From contig JADGPC010000211.1 of the NCBI GenBank assembly GCA_017882645.1, forward strand, positions 1 through 36,428: 36,428 bases of DNA. The letters run 5' to 3'. Positions 6,661 to 23,996 of the stretch are shown piece by piece. The DNA comes from Streptosporangiales bacterium. Its GTDB lineage: Bacteria > Actinomycetota > Actinomycetes > Streptosporangiales > Streptosporangiaceae. Both the position numbers and the translations under genes were made by a program. The notes beneath the pieces were generated by a model. It had not been told where the DNA came from. It ran no database searches and was given only the letters and a program-made list of their open reading frames with translations. Within the stretch, counting starts at the first letter, position 1; each line of letters begins with the position of its first letter.

Positions 6661-8592
6661 GTGACGGAGCCCAGCGCCGCGGCGTCGCAGTTCTCGCCCC
6701 GGACCGCGTGGGCGCGGCGACTGGAGACGCCGCTTCGCCAGTTCGTGCGCACCGAGACGGGCGGCGCAGCAGTCCTGCTTGCGGCCACCCTCGCCGCGCT
6801 GGCCTGGGCGAACATCAACCCGTCCGGATACGACGCCACGTGGCGCACCGAGTTCTCGATCAGGCTCGGCAGCTACGGGCTGGACGCAGACCTGCGCGAG
6901 TGGGTGAACTCCGGGCTGATGGCCTTCTTCTTCCTGGTCGCCGGCCTGGAAGCGCGCCGGGAGTTCGACATGGGCGAACTGCGCGTGCGCCTGCGGCTGG
7001 CGCTGCCGCTGGTGGTGGGGCTCGGCGGGATGATCGTTCCGATCGGGATCTACCTGGCCCTCAATGCGGGCCGCGCGTCAGCGAGCGGCTGGGGCACGGC
7101 CATGTCTACCGACACGGCGTTCGCCCTCGGGCTGCTGGCCCTGGTCGGCCGGAACGCTCCGGACCGGATCGGCACGTACCTGCTGACCTTCGCGATCGTT
7201 GACGACGTCGCGGGAATCGTGATCATCGCGCTGGCCTACAGCGGCCATGTCGATCTCACCGCGCTCGCGATCGGGCTGGCCTTCATCGGCCTGGTCCTCG
7301 TCATCCGCGGCCGCGGCGTCCACAGCGGCCTCGTCTACCTGCTGCTCGGGCTGGCGGCCTGGACGGCGTTCTTCAAATCCGGGGTCGACCCGGTGCTGGT
7401 CGGCCTCATCATGGGGCTGCTGGCCCTGGCCTACCCGGCTGCCCGGACCGACCTGGAGCGAGCATCGACCTCCTTCCGGCTGTTCCGCGAGCAGCCGACG
7501 CCTGACCTGGCCAGGGAAGCGCAGGAGAGCGTGCGGACGGCGATGTCGCCGAATGACCGGCTGCAGCAGATCTTCCACCCCTGGACGAGTTACCTGATCG
7601 TGCCGCTCTTCGCCCTGGCGAACGCCGGCATCACGATCAGCGGCGCCTTCCTGGCCCGAGCGTTCACGTCGGCGATCACCCTGGGGATCCTGCTCGGCTA
7701 CGTGCTGGGAAAGCCAGCCGGCACCGTCGGAGCGGCGTGGCTCCTCACGAAGGTCAGCCGCGGCCGCATCCGCCCGCCGGTCGGCTGGGCCGCCGTTACC
7801 GGCGTCGGCACCATCGCGGGCATCGGCTTCATCGTGTCCCTGCTGATCGCCTCGCTGGCCTTCCGGGGCACCGAGCTGGCCGAGGCCAAGGTCGGCATCC
7901 TGTCCGCCGCGGTAGGCGCGTCCGCGCTCACCTGGCTGGTCTTCCGGCTGACCGCGATGCTGCCGAACCGGCTGCGCCTGCGCGCGCTCCTCGGCACCGC
8001 CGACAGCGTCATCGACCTCGCGGTGCCGGTGGACCAGAAACGCGACCATGTCCGCGGCCCGGACCGGGCGCCGGTCACGCTCGTCGAGTACGGCGACTTT
8101 GAGTGCCCCTACTGCGGCGAGGCCGAGGCGGTGATCCGCGAGCTGCTCGCCGACTACGGCGACCTGCGCTACGTGTGGCGGCACCTGCCGCTCAGCGACG
8201 TCCACCCGCACGCGCGCATCGCCGCCGAGGCCGCCGAGGCCGCGGCCAGGCAGGGCAAGTTCTGGCCGATGCACGATCAGCTGCTCGACCACCAGGGTGA
8301 GCTGACCGCCAAGGACGTCATCGGCTACGCACGCGACATCGGGCTGAATGCCGAGCAGTTCGCCAGGGACCTGCGCACGCACGCCGGGGAAGCCAGGATC
8401 TCCGAGGACATTGACTCCGCCGACCTCAGCGGCGTCTCCGGCACTCCCACCTTCTTTGTCAACGGCAAGCGGCACCACGGCGCCTACGACATCGGCGCCC
8501 TCGCCGACGCCGTCCGCTCCGCCAGAGCACGCGCGCTGATCGGTGCGTCCCGGCAGCCGGCCGGACCGGATCGCGGCGAGCCGGCCGGGTGA
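6661..8592 (+). CDS. nhaA: Na+/H+ antiporter NhaA with C-terminal DsbA-like thioredoxin domain
   Basis: NhaA motifs (GLEARREFDMGELR, GWGTAMSTDTAFALGLLALVG, ALANAGI), then VTLVEYGDFECPYCGEAEAVIRELLADYGDLRYVWRHLPL...SGTPTFFVNGKRHHGAYD. Confidence 0.92.
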   Translation: MTEPSAAASQFSPRTAWARRLETPLRQFVRTETGGAAVLLAATLAALAWANINPSGYDATWRTEFSIRLGSYGLDADLREWVNSGLMAFFFLVAGLEARREFDMGELRVRLRLALPLVVGLGGMIVPIGIYLALNAGRASASGWGTAMSTDTAFALGLLALVGRNAPDRIGTYLLTFAIVDDVAGIVIIALAYSGHVDLTALAIGLAFIGLVLVIRGRGVHSGLVYLLLGLAAWTAFFKSGVDPVLVGLIMGLLALAYPAARTDLERASTSFRLFREQPTPDLAREAQESVRTAMSPNDRLQQIFHPWTSYLIVPLFALANAGITISGAFLARAFTSAITLGILLGYVLGKPAGTVGAAWLLTKVSRGRIRPPVGWAAVTGVGTIAGIGFIVSLLIASLAFRGTELAEAKVGILSAAVGASALTWLVFRLTAMLPNRLRLRALLGTADSVIDLAVPVDQKRDHVRGPDRAPVTLVEYGDFECPYCGEAEAVIRELLADYGDLRYVWRHLPLSDVHPHARIAAEAAEAAARQGKFWPMHDQLLDHQGELTAKDVIGYARDIGLNAEQFARDLRTHAGEARISEDIDSADLSGVSGTPTFFVNGKRHHGAYDIGALADAVRSARARALIGASRQPAGPDRGEPAG

Positions 8593-8661: not shown

Positions 8662-8725
8662 GGCAGGCTGCGGACCACGCACTGTTAACGTGCCAGACTC
8701 CCCGGAGCAGTTTGCTCGTCGGCCG
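8662..8725 (+). repeat. Conserved noncoding leader block, copy A (upstream of the 8774 small ORF)
   Basis: GGCAGGCTGCGGACCACGCACTGTTAACGTGCCAGACTCCCCGGAGCAGTTTGCTCGTCGGCCG aligns with 18455-18520. Confidence 0.75.
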
Positions 8726-8773
8726 TTCGGCAACTGTCAGCGCGGCCCTGCCACGTGACGGAGGTGGGTAAGC

Positions 8774-8983
8774 GTGAACAACGAGGAGACTGTGGCCTGG
8801 ATCCGCCAGGCCAACAACGAGTCGTGCTGGATGTGCGGTATCCGCCTGCGAGCCGACCAGATGGTCGCCGACGGCGGCCCTGCGTGCCCTGACGTCCGCT
8901 GGTACTGCCTGGATACGCGGGGATGCACGCAGCGCTGGACGGCGCGGGTCAGTGCGGTCTCCGGTTCGCCGCGGCCCTGGTAA
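8774..8983 (+). CDS. Small Cys-rich (CWMC) putative zinc-binding protein, paralogue A
   Basis: MNNEETVAWIRQANNESCWMCGIRLRADQMVADGGPACPDVRWYCLDTRGCTQRWT; paralogue at 18599-18808; RBS-like GGAGG upstream; GTG start. Confidence 0.75.
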   Translation: MNNEETVAWIRQANNESCWMCGIRLRADQMVADGGPACPDVRWYCLDTRGCTQRWTARVSAVSGSPRPW

Positions 8984-11148: not shown

Positions 11149-12225
11149 TCACGATGCGCCCTCCGTCGGGCCGACCGCGGCGGGCGGATGCGGTGCGTCG
11201 GACAGGCTGGCCGTGACCGCGTCGCGGATCACCTCGAAGGCTTCGGCATAGAGCCCGTCGCTGAAGCGCGACCAGTAACGGGCTGTCGATTCGATCAGGT
11301 CCGGCTTGAGGTAATCCCGGACCTGAGTTTGCGAGGCGAATGAGCCGATGGCCAGAAGCTTGCCCTCAAGCTGGTCATCAATGGTCACGAAATGGTTGGG
11401 CCGGAAGTCCACCGTGGCCGACGGCGACTGGAAGCAGTAGACCCGCCCGACCTCCCGGCCAGCAACCATCGCCGCCTGGTGCGTGTTCCGATGATCCTGG
11501 TGCAAGTCGTGCAGCGAATGCGTGTAGATCACGGTGGGACGCACGATCTGGACGACGCGACTTATCGTCGCGATCGTCGGGTCGCCTTCGGCGATGCTGG
11601 TGTCGTGGAGATCTTCCAGGTAAAGGTCGGCGCCGATGGCTAGCGCGGCCATCTCGGACTCGCCGGCTCTGGTGCTCTCCGGGCCGCCGCGCGCACCGCG
11701 GCTAAGGGTCAGGATGGAGACCTCGTGGCCCATCCCGCGGTGGGCGAGGAGCGCGCCGGCGGCGCCTATCTCGACGTCGTCGGGGTGCGCGCCGATCGCG
11801 AGCACTGCCTGGCGGTTGGCCAGCCTGGCGGCCCGGCCCTTAGCAACGAGCGAGCCGACCGTGGCCAGCAGCTGATCGGGCGGCACCGTTTTCTCCAGGA
11901 ATTCGTCGGCGTCATCGCGCAGCGCGCTGACCACGTTGTCGAACGATGCGTGCGCGGTGAGCACGGCAACGGGCAGGTGGGGTGATATCTGCCGCAGCTG
12001 GCGGAGCAGCTGAATGCCCGTCATCCCCGGCATTTCGACGTCGGTCACGACCAGATCCCACGTTTGCGACCTGACGTCCTGCAGGGCGGCGGCGGGATCG
12101 GTCGTGTGCGTGACATCGAATCCGCCGCGTTCGCCCAGCAGATAGGTGAGGAAGCGGCCCGTCACCGGATCGTCCTCGACCACGAGTACCCTGCCGGGCG
12201 TCCCGTCACCGCTGGTGCTGCTCAT
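11149..12225 (-). CDS. Receiver (REC) domain fused to PIG-L/LmbE-family deacetylase
   Basis: REC: VLVVEDDPVTGRFLTYLL...DLVVTDVEMPGMTGIQLLRQL...VLTAHAS...FLEK. PIG-L: VLAIGAHPDDVEIGAAGALLAHR...ILTLSRGARGG...THSLHDLHQDHRNTHQA. Start ATG at 12225 overlaps the cheR stop (ATGA). Confidence 0.9.
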   Translation of the reverse strand: MSSTSGDGTPGRVLVVEDDPVTGRFLTYLLGERGGFDVTHTTDPAAALQDVRSQTWDLVVTDVEMPGMTGIQLLRQLRQISPHLPVAVLTAHASFDNVVSALRDDADEFLEKTVPPDQLLATVGSLVAKGRAARLANRQAVLAIGAHPDDVEIGAAGALLAHRGMGHEVSILTLSRGARGGPESTRAGESEMAALAIGADLYLEDLHDTSIAEGDPTIATISRVVQIVRPTVIYTHSLHDLHQDHRNTHQAAMVAGREVGRVYCFQSPSATVDFRPNHFVTIDDQLEGKLLAIGSFASQTQVRDYLKPDLIESTARYWSRFSDGLYAEAFEVIRDAVTASLSDAPHPPAAVGPTEGAS

Positions 12226-13499
12226 GGGCCACTCCCGTCGCTCCTCATCCCTGCATCGCGCACTCCGAGCCGCGCCCGGCATGCCGCCGCGATGTCGCTG
12301 ATGTCGATCTGCTGGAGCATCCGCTCATGCCTGTGATCGGCGGGGTCGAACGTGCGCAGCGCCTGCTCGTAGGCGCGCCGGGCCGCAGGCTCGTCATCCA
12401 GCGCGTCGTAGGCACGGCCGAGCGTGAATGCCGCGAGCGCAAACGCTGCGTCGGCGCAGAGGGCCCGGCGCAGCGCTGCCGCCGATCTCGCCGGGCGGCC
12501 TGCTTCGAGCCAGACCAGCCCGTCGATGAAATGGGCGTCGGCATCGAGCGGGTCATCCGCGAGCAGCGCGTCCACGTAGCTGAGGGCGCCACCTCGGTCG
12601 CCGTTGTCGGCTGCTTCCAGGGCCGCGTCCAGCCGCTGCTCACGGGTGAGCAGCAACGCTGGCTGGTGCGGGCGGCGCTGACGCAGCCTCGATGCTCGAA
12701 TCTCGCCCTCGGGGCGGCGGCCGGGTGACCCCGGCGGGCGGGGCGGCCGCAGCAGCGCGTCGGCAGCACCGAGCAGCAGAATGCCGCCTGGCCGCAGGGA
12801 ATGCTCGAGTGATTCGATCACCCGCCGCACGAGGGCAGCGTCGAAGTAGATGAGCACGTTCCGGCAGGAAATCAGGTCAAAGGCCGCCTCGCCGGCCGGC
12901 GGCGCCTGGTCGCAGGCAAGGTTGTGCCGCCTGAAGCGCACCAGGTCACGCAGGTGCTCGCGAACGAGGTAGTGCCCGTCGGCCTGCCGGTCAAGGTAGC
13001 GCGTGCGGAGCGACGATTCCAGGCCGCGCACGGCCCGGGCACCGTACCGGCCACGCGCGGCAGCGGCGAGCGCGGCGACGGACACGTCGGTCCCCAGCAC
13101 GGAGACCGGCACGTCCGGCACGGCTAGCACGTCCGCCGCCAGCAGCGCCAGCGTGTAGGCCTCTTCACCGCTCGCACAGCCGGCGCTCCACACCCGGATG
13201 CCCGGTGAGCCTGCGGCCCGGGCAGAGTCCAGCAGCCGCCGCCACGGGATCGTATCGAGCTGTCCGCGGTCCCGTACGAATGACGTCTCCTGAATGGTCA
13301 CCTCGTCGATCAGCCGGTCCAGCAGATCGCGGCCATCCGGGCCTGCGGCGATGCTGGCCAACGTGCCGGGATCGAGGCCTGGCGCTGCCCGGTCCGCTGC
13401 GGCCAGGATGGCCGTCTTCCGCGCCGCTGGCAGGACGATGCCAGTCTCGGCGCGGATCAGCTCGGTGATCCCGGCCAGTGCAGCGGACTCGTGCTTCAT
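12222..13499 (-). CDS. cheR: CheR-type MCP methyltransferase with C-terminal TPR repeats
   Basis: VTIQETSFVRDRGQLD, IRVWSAGCASGEEAYTLALL, FDLISCRNVLIYFD, HSLRPGGILLLGAADALL; TPR-like DADAHFIDGLVWLEAGRPARSAAALRRAL...AFTLGRAYDALDDEPAARRAYEQAL. Confidence 0.92.
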   Translation of the reverse strand: MKHESAALAGITELIRAETGIVLPAARKTAILAAADRAAPGLDPGTLASIAAGPDGRDLLDRLIDEVTIQETSFVRDRGQLDTIPWRRLLDSARAAGSPGIRVWSAGCASGEEAYTLALLAADVLAVPDVPVSVLGTDVSVAALAAAARGRYGARAVRGLESSLRTRYLDRQADGHYLVREHLRDLVRFRRHNLACDQAPPAGEAAFDLISCRNVLIYFDAALVRRVIESLEHSLRPGGILLLGAADALLRPPRPPGSPGRRPEGEIRASRLRQRRPHQPALLLTREQRLDAALEAADNGDRGGALSYVDALLADDPLDADAHFIDGLVWLEAGRPARSAAALRRALCADAAFALAAFTLGRAYDALDDEPAARRAYEQALRTFDPADHRHERMLQQIDISDIAAACRARLGVRDAGMRSDGSGP

Positions 13500-14524
13500 C
13501 GCAGTGGCTGATGGCGCAGGGCCAGCAGGCAGGCAGCGATCTCGGCCGGCGGCAGGACGACATCGATCCCGAGTTCTGTCGCGGCCTTCGGCATCCCGAA
13601 GACCGCCGACGACTGCTCGTCCTGGGCGATGGCGAGCCCGCCGCCGCGGCGCACGTCGGCCGCGCCGATGGCGCCGTCCCTGCCCATGCCAGACAGCACC
13701 ACGGCCACGCCGGCGCTGCCGGCGGCGTCGGCGATGCTGGTGAGGAGGACATTGCCGGATGGCCGGTGCGCCCCGGCGTTTGTCAGCCGGTCAAGGTGCA
13801 ACCGCCCGCCGGCCGCCAGCATCAGGTGGGCGCCTTCAGGCGCGAGCGAAGCTCCGGTCATGACCATAGCCCCCTGTGTCGCGAGCCGCACCGGAAGCGC
13901 TACCGACTGGTCGAGCCATCGGACGAGGCCGTCGGTGAACCCGGCCGCTATGTGCTGAACGATCAGGACCGGAATCGGGTAGTCGGCTGGCAGCGCCTCG
14001 AGCAGGTACATCAGGAGCTGAGGGCCACCGGTGGACGCGCAGATGCCGATCACCGAGGCGCGGCGGCCCTGGACGGGAGCGCGAGGCCGGATCCCGAGCC
14101 TGGCCCGCGGATGGCGGATGACCCGGGCCCGGCTGAGCGTCCTGACCCGATGCCGGAAGGCGGCGCCGGCCATCCCGGCCGGGTCACGCAGGTCGAGATC
14201 GTCCTTCGCCAGCGCGTCTAGCGCTCCCGCCGCCAGGGCGGCTGAGGTCATGTCACTGCCGGGCCCGACATAAGAGGACAGCACGAGAATCGGCATGGGC
14301 CGTGAGCTCATGATCTCCTCGACCGCCCTGAGTCCGTCCATGCCGGGCAGCTCAAGATCCATGGTCAGCAGATCTGGCTCCATGCCGGGCAGCGCTGCCG
14401 CTGCTTCCTCCGCGGTCGCGGCGAACGCCACGACCTCGATATCGCCGTCATATTCGAGCATCCGCCGCAGCCCGGTGGCGTACACGCCGGAGTCCTCGCA
14501 GACCAGCACGCGCACTGCGCTCAT
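13496..14524 (-). CDS. cheB: CheB-type methylesterase/response regulator
   Basis: REC VRVLVCEDSGVYATGLRRML...LLTMDLELPGMDG; effector VIGICASTGGPQLLMYLLEALPADYPIPVLIVQHIAAGFTDGLVRWLD...VLSGMGRDGAIGAADVRRGGGLAIAQDEQSSAVFGMP. Confidence 0.95.
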   Translation of the reverse strand: MSAVRVLVCEDSGVYATGLRRMLEYDGDIEVVAFAATAEEAAAALPGMEPDLLTMDLELPGMDGLRAVEEIMSSRPMPILVLSSYVGPGSDMTSAALAAGALDALAKDDLDLRDPAGMAGAAFRHRVRTLSRARVIRHPRARLGIRPRAPVQGRRASVIGICASTGGPQLLMYLLEALPADYPIPVLIVQHIAAGFTDGLVRWLDQSVALPVRLATQGAMVMTGASLAPEGAHLMLAAGGRLHLDRLTNAGAHRPSGNVLLTSIADAAGSAGVAVVLSGMGRDGAIGAADVRRGGGLAIAQDEQSSAVFGMPKAATELGIDVVLPPAEIAACLLALRHQPLR

Positions 14525-16494
14525 GCCTTCACCCGGCCGACGAGCCGCTCGACGGTCGCGAGCATGGCCTGCTGGTCAAAGCTTCGCTTGGCCATGTAAG
14601 CGTCGGCGCCAGCCTCGAGCCCCTCCCGCCGGTCGTCCTCTGATCCCAGCGTGGTGAGGATCACGACCGGCAGCGACGAGCGGGTGGCGTGGGCGCGAAT
14701 GGCCCGCGTGAGCTGGATCCCGTCCAGCTCGGGCATCTGCAGGTCAGTGATGACGAGCGCGATCTCCGGATCTCGGTCGAGCGAGTCGAGCGCGTCCATT
14801 CCGTCGCGCGCGGTGACCACCGGATAGCCCGCGGCTTCGAGAATGCCCCGCTGGAGCTCGCGGACGGTAAACGAGTCCTCGACCACGAGAATCCGGGGGG
14901 CAGCGGGCAGTCGGGACCCGGGTTCAGGTGCTGCTGTCGTGCCATGTCGCCGGGATTCGCGGGTCAGCATGCTCGGCTCGATGATCAGGGCGATCCTGCC
15001 GTCCCCCAGGATGGCAGCGCCGAGGTATCCTTCCGCGCCAGCCAGCAAAGTCCCGAGCGGCTTGATCATGACCAGGGCCTGGCCGAGGAGCGCGTCGCAC
15101 GTCGCGACGGCCTGCCGGCCGCCGACGGAGATGACGAGAGCAGGCGGTCTGGCGGGCAGCGACGGCATGTCGGTGCCTAGCAGCACAGCAAGGTCAGTGA
15201 TCGGCACGGCCTTGCCGTGAACGTGCAGTGACTGCACGCCCTGCAGGGCCAGGGTCCGGGTCACGGTCATCACTTCGCTGATCGCGGCGAGCGGTACCCC
15301 GTAGACGTCGGCGCCGCGCTCGACCAGGAGCACCTCGACGAGGGCAAGCGCGAGCGGCAGCAGCAGGATGATCTCCATCCCGCGGCCGGGCTCGCTACGT
15401 ATCTCGAAGCTGCCGCCCATGGACCGCACGTATGCGCCGACGGCGTCAAGACCTACACCGCGACCAGCGAGGTCGGTCACCTGCGCGGCCGTCGAGTACC
15501 CCGGCCGGGCGAGAAGGTCCGCGAGTGATCCGGCGCGGCTGGCCTCCTCGGCGACCTTCGCGGTCACTCCCCGGCCGTCATCGGTGACCGTGATCTGCAC
15601 CACGGCACCTCGGGGCTCGGCCCGCAATTCGATCCGGGCGCGCGGAGCCTTGCCCGCCCGCTGGCGCTCGCCGGGCGGCTCGACGCCGTGCACGACCGCA
15701 TTGCGCAGGAGGTGAACCAGCGGCTCCGTCAGGCTCTCGATGATGACGCGGTCGAGTTCCGTCTCGGCGCCAGTAATGACAAACTCGACATCCTTTCCCG
15801 CCGTGTGGGCCAGGTCTCTCACCGCCCGCGGCAGCCGGCCGGCGATCACCGCCAGCGGCAGCGTTCGCATCCCTACGGCTGTGTCCTGCAGTTCGTCGAA
15901 GAGGCGAGTGCCCGCTCCGAGTGCGTCCGCGACCTCCGCCGACGGCGGGCCATCCGTCCCGAGGGCGTGCGCGAGCCGCCGCCGGTCCTGCATGATCTCC
16001 CCGGCTATGTCGAGCAGATCATCGATCTTGCCGGCGGGCACCCGCAGCGAATGGGCGGCCGGTGCCGGCTCGGCCGCTGGTGCCGGCTCGGCCGCTGGTG
16101 CCGGCTCGGCCGCGCCAGCGGCCAGCTCATCCCGGCATTTCTCAAGGTCGTCCAGCAATCCGTCGGCGGACGAGCCGACCGGCTGTCCGGTCACCTGCGC
16201 GCGAATCGCAGCGGTCGCACGCAGCAGCGGCGCGGCCATCGACGGCGGGGAGGCCCCCGATCCGCGCACTTGGGCCAGTACGTCCTCAGCGGCGGCCGCC
16301 ATGGCCTGGATGTCGCCGAACCCGAGCATCCCGGCCGCGCCCTTGATGGTGTGCGCGTGCCGGAACAGCGAGTCGACGGCGTCGGCTCCCGCATCTCCAG
16401 CCTCGATCGCGACCAGCGCGGCATCCATCTGCTCAAGCCGCTTCGACGTCTCGTCGCGGAAAAGCTCGATCAGCCTGGTGTCGGGATCGCTCAT
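14521..16494 (-). CDS. cheA: CheA-type hybrid histidine kinase (Hpt-HATPase-CheW-like-REC)
   Basis: Hpt HAHTIKGAAGMLG; HATPase LLRNAVVHGVEPPGER, DLAGRGVGLDAVG; CheW-like VYGVPLAAISEVM; C-terminal REC ILVVEDSFTVRELQRGILEAAGYPVVTARDGMDALDSL...LVITDLQMPELDG. Confidence 0.95.
   Translation of the reverse strand: MSDPDTRLIELFRDETSKRLEQMDAALVAIEAGDAGADAVDSLFRHAHTIKGAAGMLGFGDIQAMAAAAEDVLAQVRGSGASPPSMAAPLLRATAAIRAQVTGQPVGSSADGLLDDLEKCRDELAAGAAEPAPAAEPAPAAEPAPAAHSLRVPAGKIDDLLDIAGEIMQDRRRLAHALGTDGPPSAEVADALGAGTRLFDELQDTAVGMRTLPLAVIAGRLPRAVRDLAHTAGKDVEFVITGAETELDRVIIESLTEPLVHLLRNAVVHGVEPPGERQRAGKAPRARIELRAEPRGAVVQITVTDDGRGVTAKVAEEASRAGSLADLLARPGYSTAAQVTDLAGRGVGLDAVGAYVRSMGGSFEIRSEPGRGMEIILLLPLALALVEVLLVERGADVYGVPLAAISEVMTVTRTLALQGVQSLHVHGKAVPITDLAVLLGTDMPSLPARPPALVISVGGRQAVATCDALLGQALVMIKPLGTLLAGAEGYLGAAILGDGRIALIIEPSMLTRESRRHGTTAAPEPGSRLPAAPRILVVEDSFTVRELQRGILEAAGYPVVTARDGMDALDSLDRDPEIALVITDLQMPELDGIQLTRAIRAHATRSSLPVVILTTLGSEDDRREGLEAGADAYMAKRSFDQQAMLATVERLVGRVKA
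16061..16114 (-). repeat. Three 18-bp tandem units in cheA encoding the EPAPAA linker
   Basis: ggtgccggctcggccgct repeated at 16061, 16079 and 16097 (last unit slightly diverged); protein AEPAPAAEPAPAAEPAPAA. Confidence 0.9.
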
Positions 16495-16895
16495 GACCGG
16501 ACCTGCTCGAGCACGTCAAGGACGCGCGGCACGTCGAGCACGCCGATCAGACAGTCCCCCGCGAGCGCAGCACCGACGAGCAGCTCTGACGGTGCGTCGT
16601 CGGCCGGATCCCCCAGTTCACAGACTGCGCTCACGCCGTCTATCGCGAATCCAGCCCGGCGGCCTGCTACGTCGGTGACCAGCAGGCAGCCGGGCGGTGC
16701 CACTCGCGCGACGCCGAGGAGCAGGGCCAGATCGGCCACCGGGACGATCTGCCCGCGCAGGTTGCATACGCCTAGCAGCTCAGGCCGGGAACCCGGCACC
16801 GTGCGAACAGTGCCCAGGGCAGCTACCTCGCTGACCTGCTCGACGGGAACCGCGTAAGCCTCGGATCCCACTTGCAGCCGTACGTAGACACTCAC
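16491..16895 (-). CDS. cheW: CheW-type coupling protein
   Basis: [58 protein letters not shown]. Confidence 0.93.
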
Positions 16896-18343
16896 GATGA
16901 GCGCTTCTCGCCGCTCTCGCTGAGGGCGCCCTCCAGCTCGTCTACCAGCGCCTCAAGCCGCCCGGCAGTCGCTGACCACTGCGCTTGCTCGGTCGCGAGC
17001 AGATCGGCCGCCGCCCGGATCTGCTGGATGGCCAGGTCGACCTGGTCAGCCGCGGACTTCTGCTGCTGAGTGGCGAGGATCGACTCCTCGAGCATCGTCG
17101 CCGTGGAGGTCATCAGATCGCCGACCCGCCGGGCCTGGCGGGTTCCTTCCTCGGTGGCCATGATGGTCGAGTTCGTACCGTCCTGAACTCCGGCGATGAT
17201 GACGCTGATCGAGTCGGTCGAGTGAACTGATCGCTCGGCTAGCTTGCGCACTTCGGCCGCCACTACGGCGAAGCCCTTGCCGGCTTCACCCGCCCTGGCC
17301 GCCTCGATGGCGGCATTCAGGGCGAGCAGGTTCGTCTGTCCGGCAATGTCATTGATCAGGTCCAGGATCTCGCCGATCTGCTGAGCGTGCTTGCTCAGCG
17401 AGAGCGCCCGCTCGGTAATGTCATCGATTTTCGCCTGCAGCTCGCCCATGGTGTCGCCGGTCTGCTCGGCCGCCACCGCGATGGCATGGGCGTTGTCGGC
17501 GATTGCTCCGGCCGTCGTGGCAAGCTCCTCGATCGTCGCGGATGTCTCCGCGACCGCGGACGATTGCTCACTCGTCACGGCGGCTGCGTTCTTAGCCGCG
17601 AGCCGCAGCTCGCCGGTAACCTCGCTGAGCACCGCCGAGGTCGAGCGCAGACGGCTGAGAAGTCCGTTCAGCCGCCCGAGCGTGGCGGTCAGTTCCCGCT
17701 CCCGCTCAGACGCACGCCGCAGCAGCTGGATGGCGAAGAGCGAGAATCCACAGATCGCGAGGACCGCGAGGATGCCAGCCACCACGCCGATCACGAGCGC
17801 CTGACCCGCGGCCGACGCAGCATGAGCCTGGCCTGCGTCGGCCCGCTCTTGCTGAGCGTGATCGAGCTGGCTGAGCGGTCCGAGCACGTTATCCTCGGCG
17901 GCGGCTAGCGCGGAGATCGCCCGGATCTCGCGCGCGACCGTCGTTCCCCCGGCCGGTCGGACCCGGTTGAACAGCGCGACGTAAGCAGTATTCGCGGCCG
18001 AAGCCCGGCTTCGGAGGCGCTCCTCAGGTCCCGTCTGACTCGTTCCGAGAATCGCGGACGTAGCAGCGAACTGAGCCCGCTGCAGGTCTACCTCGCGCAG
18101 CCGGGACGACATCGGAGCGATCATGTACTCGTTCATGGCCTCGTGCTCGTGCCAGAAGCCGGCCACCAGTTTCGCGGTTAGCCGCGCGTCGTGCCGTGCG
18201 TCGAGCGCCGTCCCCGACTGCGCGAGAGCTGCCTCATAGCGCCAGATTGTGATGCCGATCACGGCCGCAATGACCAGGCCGGCGACGATGCTGACCGCCG
18301 TGAAGCGGCGGACCGAGTCGCTAACACCTCGTTGGGCAATCAC
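16892..18343 (-). CDS. Methyl-accepting chemotaxis protein (two TM helices flanking an extracytoplasmic domain; no obvious HAMP)
   Basis: Hairpin tip [49 protein letters not shown]1 [23 protein letters not shown]2 [24 protein letters not shown]. Confidence 0.95.
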
Positions 18344-18454: not shown

Positions 18455-18520
18455 GGCAAGCTATGGACCACGTGCCCTTAACCTGCCAGACTCCCCAGGA
18501 ACAGCTATTTGCGTCAGCCG
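18455..18520 (+). repeat. Conserved noncoding leader block, copy B (upstream of the 18599 small ORF)
   Basis: GGCAAGCTATGGACCACGTGCCCTTAACCTGCCAGACTCCCCAGGAACAGCTATTTGCGTCAGCCG aligns with 8662-8725. Confidence 0.75.
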
Positions 18521-18598
18521 CGATGTTGCGGCTAGCTCCCGCTGTCGGGACCGGGAGCCGTCCGGCACCTCTGCCATGTGCCGGAGGGGGGATGAGCA

Positions 18599-18808
18599 AT
18601 GAACGACGTGGAGACTGTGGCCTGGGTTCGGCAGGCCGCAAACGAGTCGTGCTGGATGTGCGGCGCTCGCCTGCGAGCTGGCGAGATGATTGCCGACGGC
18701 GGCAGCGCGTGCTCCGATGTGCGCTGGTATTGCCGGGACACGCCAGCATGCACGCGGCGCTGGACTGGGCGGCAGCGGGAATCCTCCGCCATGGCGCAAT
18801 TGCGGTGA
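18599..18808 (+). CDS. Small Cys-rich (CWMC) putative zinc-binding protein, paralogue B
   Basis: MNDVETVAWVRQAANESCWMCGARLRAGEMIADGGSACSDVRWYCRDTPACTRRWT; about 43 of the first 58 residues identical to paralogue A by hand count. Confidence 0.75.
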   Translation: MNDVETVAWVRQAANESCWMCGARLRAGEMIADGGSACSDVRWYCRDTPACTRRWTGRQRESSAMAQLR

Positions 18809-23687: not shown

Positions 23688-23996
23688 CTACGGCTCGGCG
23701 GTGCGGCCTGCGCCCGCGGGCACCCGGCTGGCCATCGCCGGAAGCGGCCGGCTCGTGCGGGCCGCCAGGACGTGCTGTCTCTCGTCCTCGGACGTGCCGC
23801 CCCAGACGCCATGAACCTGGCGCGTGGCCAGGGCGAACTCCAGGCACTCGGCCCGTACCTGGCAGCCAGCGCAGACCGTCTTCGCCTGATCTAGCTGCTC
23901 GACCGCAGGGCCGGCCGAGGACAGCGGGAAGAAGAGCTCAGGGTCGGCGCTCAGGCAGGCGCCACGCGCGCGCCAGTCGGCATCTGCTTTCGTCAT
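23688..23996 (-). CDS. WhiB-family iron-sulfur transcriptional regulator
   Basis: WRARGACLSADPELFFP...AKTVCAGCQVRAECLEFALATRQVHGVWGGTSEDER: four conserved Cys plus GVWGG. Confidence 0.95.
   Translation of the reverse strand: MTKADADWRARGACLSADPELFFPLSSAGPAVEQLDQAKTVCAGCQVRAECLEFALATRQVHGVWGGTSEDERQHVLAARTSRPLPAMASRVPAGAGRTAEP

Follow-up and report, generated by a model that had tools for sequence, protein, structure and literature searches.

Two CWMC genes and their surroundings

The window, a stretch of 36,428 nucleotides, carries two paralogous genes of the CWMC family, each preceded by a copy of the same noncoding block (Table 1). The two proteins share 64% identity, and the cysteines C18, C21, C45 and C51 (CxxC-x23-C-x5-C) are invariant in the family, whose sequence signature reads CWxCG...M.xDGG.AC.D.RWYC.D...CT.RWT. 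The CWMC protein looks like a zinc ribbon, and the structure model shows a small beta part with a C-terminal helix (mean pLDDT 72.6, pTM 0.50). No Pfam, NCBIfam or PHROG family scored above its cut-off for these proteins, and no significant match was obtained in PDB sequence and fold searches. Searches for phage and plasmid relatives gave none that was credible, the matches on viral contigs spanning only 23 residues.

Copy A is neighboured by an NhaA-DsbA fusion gene and a TetR gene, and copy B by a divergent chemoreceptor operon and a PNPOx-type gene. The chemosensory operon, in which CheR, CheW and MCP were found, has other upstream neighbours in G002 and G004 of the same genus, both of which are without copy B. 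The CWMC neighbourhoods in G021, G033, G018, G229 and G092 differ from one another and from those of A and B. In G092 (L077 102-773, L076 1966-2667) each CWMC paralogue lies directly 3' of a paralogous cysteine-rich protein gene with the start ADRRKCEQCGAVFVPRREHARFC, which suggests that a segment of two genes was duplicated in this genome. Empty-site comparison with same-genus genomes did not find locus A and showed locus B rearranged, so that it does not define where the duplicated or inserted unit begins and ends.

Table 1. Features of the two CWMC loci and nearby genes (window coordinates).
Feature	Position	Strand	Remark
NhaA-type Na+/H+ antiporter fused to DsbA-like thioredoxin domain	6661..8592		
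Shared leader block, copy A	8662..8725	+	putative core promoter and early transcribed region
Predicted -35 hexamer CGGACC, copy A	8671..8676	+	GGAC invariant in four leaders of three genera; candidate promoter part
Predicted extended -10, copy A (TGC + CAGACT, C shared)	8691..8699	+	hexamer 8694-8699; 17-nt spacer from -35
Predicted transcription start, copy A	8704..8706	+	purines 5-7 nt past -10; placed from published Streptomyces TSS distances
Early transcribed element GTCGGCCG, copy A	8718..8725	+	consensus GYCRGCCG; conserved, 15-18 nt from predicted TSS
RBS patch CTGCCACGTGACGGAGG, copy A	8748..8764	+	Shine-Dalgarno GGAGG 8760-8764
CWMC gene copy A	8774..8983	+	69 aa zinc-ribbon-like protein; dN/dS 0.26 against B
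Chemosensory operon	12222..18343	-	
Shared leader block, copy B	18455..18520	+	
Predicted -35 hexamer TGGACC, copy B	18464..18469	+	
Predicted extended -10, copy B	18484..18492	+	hexamer CAGACT 18487-18492
Predicted transcription start, copy B	about 18497..18499		
RBS patch CTGCCATGTGCCGGAGG, copy B	18571..18587	+	
CWMC gene copy B	18599..18808	+	69 aa
WhiB-family regulator gene	23688..23996	-	

The leader block within the genome

An earlier note on this DNA had reported that the block before copy A recurs before copy B, and our comparison confirmed both sequences and their coordinates. The block ends 48 nt before the GTG start of copy A and 78 nt before the ATG of copy B. The spacer from block to RBS is not alignable between A and B, as had been claimed, and the RBS patch is indeed common to the two (15 of 17 positions identical), its upstream half being shared by A and B only among the four leaders compared below. 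When the A leader plus gene was used as BLASTN query against the own assembly (4.36 Mb, 536 contigs, 78% complete), the B leader was returned as a separate match (76% identity, E=1e-4) and no third block copy was found, all other matches having E>0.1. The local alignment of the A and B leaders scored 33 without the RBS part, more than any of 2000 dinucleotide shuffles (mean 10.6, maximum 20). Both copies precede the paralogous CWMC genes and no other site carries the block, which excludes a repeat family in this genome. Neither the strict pattern nor the sequence-only model R1 pointed to a regulon, as only the CWMC leaders score high in the own genome.

It had been argued that the synonymous sites of the two genes have diverged while the block has not. 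The direction of this claim holds weakly, with dS of 0.51-0.59 between A and B (NG86), a block distance of ~0.38 (Jukes-Cantor) and a ratio of block distance to dS from 0.40 to 1.06 in the six pairwise comparisons among the four genes with a block, but the fourfold sites of A and B do not bear it out, 16 of 21 (76%) being identical, about equal to the block. The comparison of A with B is thus by itself no proof of constraint; what points to constraint on the block is its sequence in other genera.

The block in other genera

The CWMC gene was found in six of 343 genomes of the family Streptosporangiaceae, and in a class-level sample of 395 genomes the own genome was the sole carrier. The six named relatives are loci of metagenome-assembled genomes, and the gene is missing from all of the four further genomes of its genus. 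Three carriers (G000, G021 and G092) have two copies each. As the earlier note had proposed, the block was queried across the genome and its relatives, and further copies precede homologues in other genera, several more distant homologues being without it. In G033 (L027) and G021 (L029), which belong to two other genera of the family, TGGAC-N15-TGCCA[G/C]ACT followed by GYCRGCCG stands before the homologous gene. The block was undetectable before the two homologues of G092, that of G229 and the second G021 copy, and the G018 leader matched only weakly and partially, in the 3' portion of the block (E=0.03 in 351 bases). In the protein tree A and B are sisters (support 90/94), and support is otherwise too poor to separate a single gain of the block from several losses.

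These copies bear on whether the block is a passive remnant of a segmental duplication, kept without selected function. The sister relationship of A and B and the similarity of their fourfold sites agree with such a remnant, but the block also stands before the homologue in two other genera, and the DNA that flanks it there does not align. A recent segmental duplication is thus not the sole explanation, and the passive reading is largely refuted and very improbable.

The block is also specific to the gene. A pattern with free spacing (11-19) gave 27 matches in 37 genomes, below the reversed control, and only A and B in the own genome; with the spacing held at 15, the matches in the same 37 genomes were A, B, the G021 leader and one site in G041, which belongs to another family. 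R1 scored the four leaders at 56-63 bits and the next best place among the 37 genomes at 21 bits, in unrelated coding sequence, a gap that measures specificity and not independent confirmation because R1 was trained on the same four leaders. The best places outside the leaders, in G004, G039 and G010, reach 20-21 bits and overlap unrelated coding regions or fall within them.

Promoter-like layout of the block

The arrangement GGAC-N15-TGCCA[G/C]ACT stands at identical spacing before A, B, G033 and G021a. The spacer between the two hexamers is 17 nt in all four, which is fixed between homologues and falls within the 15-19 nt of sigma70/HrdB-type promoters. The -35 versions are CGGACC, TGGACC, TGGACT and TGGACG, with the GAC core in 4/4 and G replacing T at position 2, and the -10 versions are CAGACT and CACACT, in which A2 and T6 are present and the first T is missing. 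Invariant columns make up 12 of 15 in the -35/extended -10 footprint versus 13 of 58 elsewhere (Fisher p=7e-5, for a footprint chosen post hoc). A generic sigma70 scan made no call on the block, and a count of -35/-10 pairs over 449 kb of the assembly showed no enrichment peak at 17-nt spacing, with too few sites and low power. The layout resembles that of Streptomyces promoters mapped by 5'-end sequencing, which have a -35 of nTGACn/NTGACC and a -10 of TAnnnT, with a mean spacer of 17.4 nt and a mostly purine TSS 6.3 nt past the -10 (PMC8079986, PMC4895711); only 42.9% of leadered S. lividans promoters have the first T of the -10 (PMC8079986).

From this layout we infer a promoter role, a sigma factor and a start site. 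The block is probably (roughly 70%) the core promoter, together with the ~20 bases transcribed first, of a monocistronic unit for the zinc-ribbon-like protein. RNA polymerase with an HrdB-type housekeeping sigma factor would most likely read the -35 YGGACC, the 17-nt spacer and the extended -10 TGC-CAGACT. Transcription would begin at the purines 5-7 nt past the -10, giving a predicted leader of ~70 nt in A or ~100 nt in B with the GGAGG ribosome site. Points that speak against this reading are the departures of the -35 and -10 from the consensus, the outcome of the sigma70 scan and of the pair count, the homologues in which no block was detected, and the position of GYCRGCCG beyond the core promoter.

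The putative early transcribed element and other readings of the leader

The GYCRGCCG element sits 3' of the core promoter contacts, 15-18 nt past the predicted start in all block-bearing leaders, a nearly constant distance. Most likely it would serve as a site for a regulator or affect initial transcription or early elongation. The block as a whole might be an operator for a dedicated regulator, perhaps the CWMC protein itself, that overlaps the promoter and includes GYCRGCCG. Such an operator would fit the conservation, which continues at an almost constant distance for ~20 nt behind the predicted start, and it would fit a gene-specific block without a regulon, but no palindrome or direct repeat was seen by eye across the four leaders and no regulator gene is common to the loci; we hold it to be unlikely. 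That the CWMC protein binds the block as an autoregulating factor is much less probable still, a guess only, as no family or fold identifies the protein. In that case this rare orphan family would be a DNA-binding factor maintained, together with its operator, as an independent unit in unrelated places.

Another reading is a cis-regulatory RNA or structured 5' UTR. The stem AGCCGC-gatgtt-GCGGCT is possible in copy B, and in G033 GGCCAGCCGCG pairs with sequence further on, but the leaders show no structure beyond chance: folding z-scores were -0.24, -0.63, -0.38 and -0.81, the four leaders gave four different minimum-energy folds, pairing between the element and other leader sequence exceeded the shuffles in G033 only, and there was no Rfam match. 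Moreover, the majority of the block lies 5' of the predicted start, and a role as structured RNA is highly improbable. Among the three options once offered for the block, the promoter or operator is supported, as a promoter, by cross-genus conservation and fixed spacing, and the structured 5' UTR and the repeat family are not. A short leader peptide read from GTGCCAGAC was considered as well. In A the open frame VPDSPEQFARRPFGNCQRGPAT ends at the RBS, but B has CTG for GTG and a 2-nt insertion, and in G021a one nucleotide is deleted and a stop follows early. The block thus preserves neither a peptide nor a reading frame, and the upstream ORF was rejected as having next to no likelihood.

The promoter reading and known systems

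Under the promoter reading, gene and promoter would have been duplicated together in the own lineage, and the promoter would be common to the G033 and G021 copies; the block most likely predates the gene duplication as a common promoter. Since the neighbours are unrelated at each locus, every CWMC gene must bring a promoter of its own, and this need accounts for the block most simply. The block itself is an ordinary kind of element. It marks a rare small zinc-ribbon family, to date met with only in metagenome-assembled genomes from a single actinobacterial family, which would keep its own promoter across unrelated neighbourhoods. A comparison of paralogues by eye can reveal a conserved promoter, which other genera then confirm.

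The CWMC proteins resemble small zinc-ribbon and CxxC proteins in having four invariant cysteines within 69 aa and a model of small beta part and C-terminal helix, but differ from the known ones in that they have no family or significant fold match. Like the HrdB and sigma70-type promoters of high-GC Actinobacteria, the block has the GAC core in its predicted -35, the 17-nt spacer, and a -10 with A at position 2, T at position 6, a TG extension and purines 5-7 nt further on. On the other hand, its -35 is YGGACN where these promoters have TTGACN, its -10 begins with C, and its conservation runs ~20 nt beyond the predicted start.
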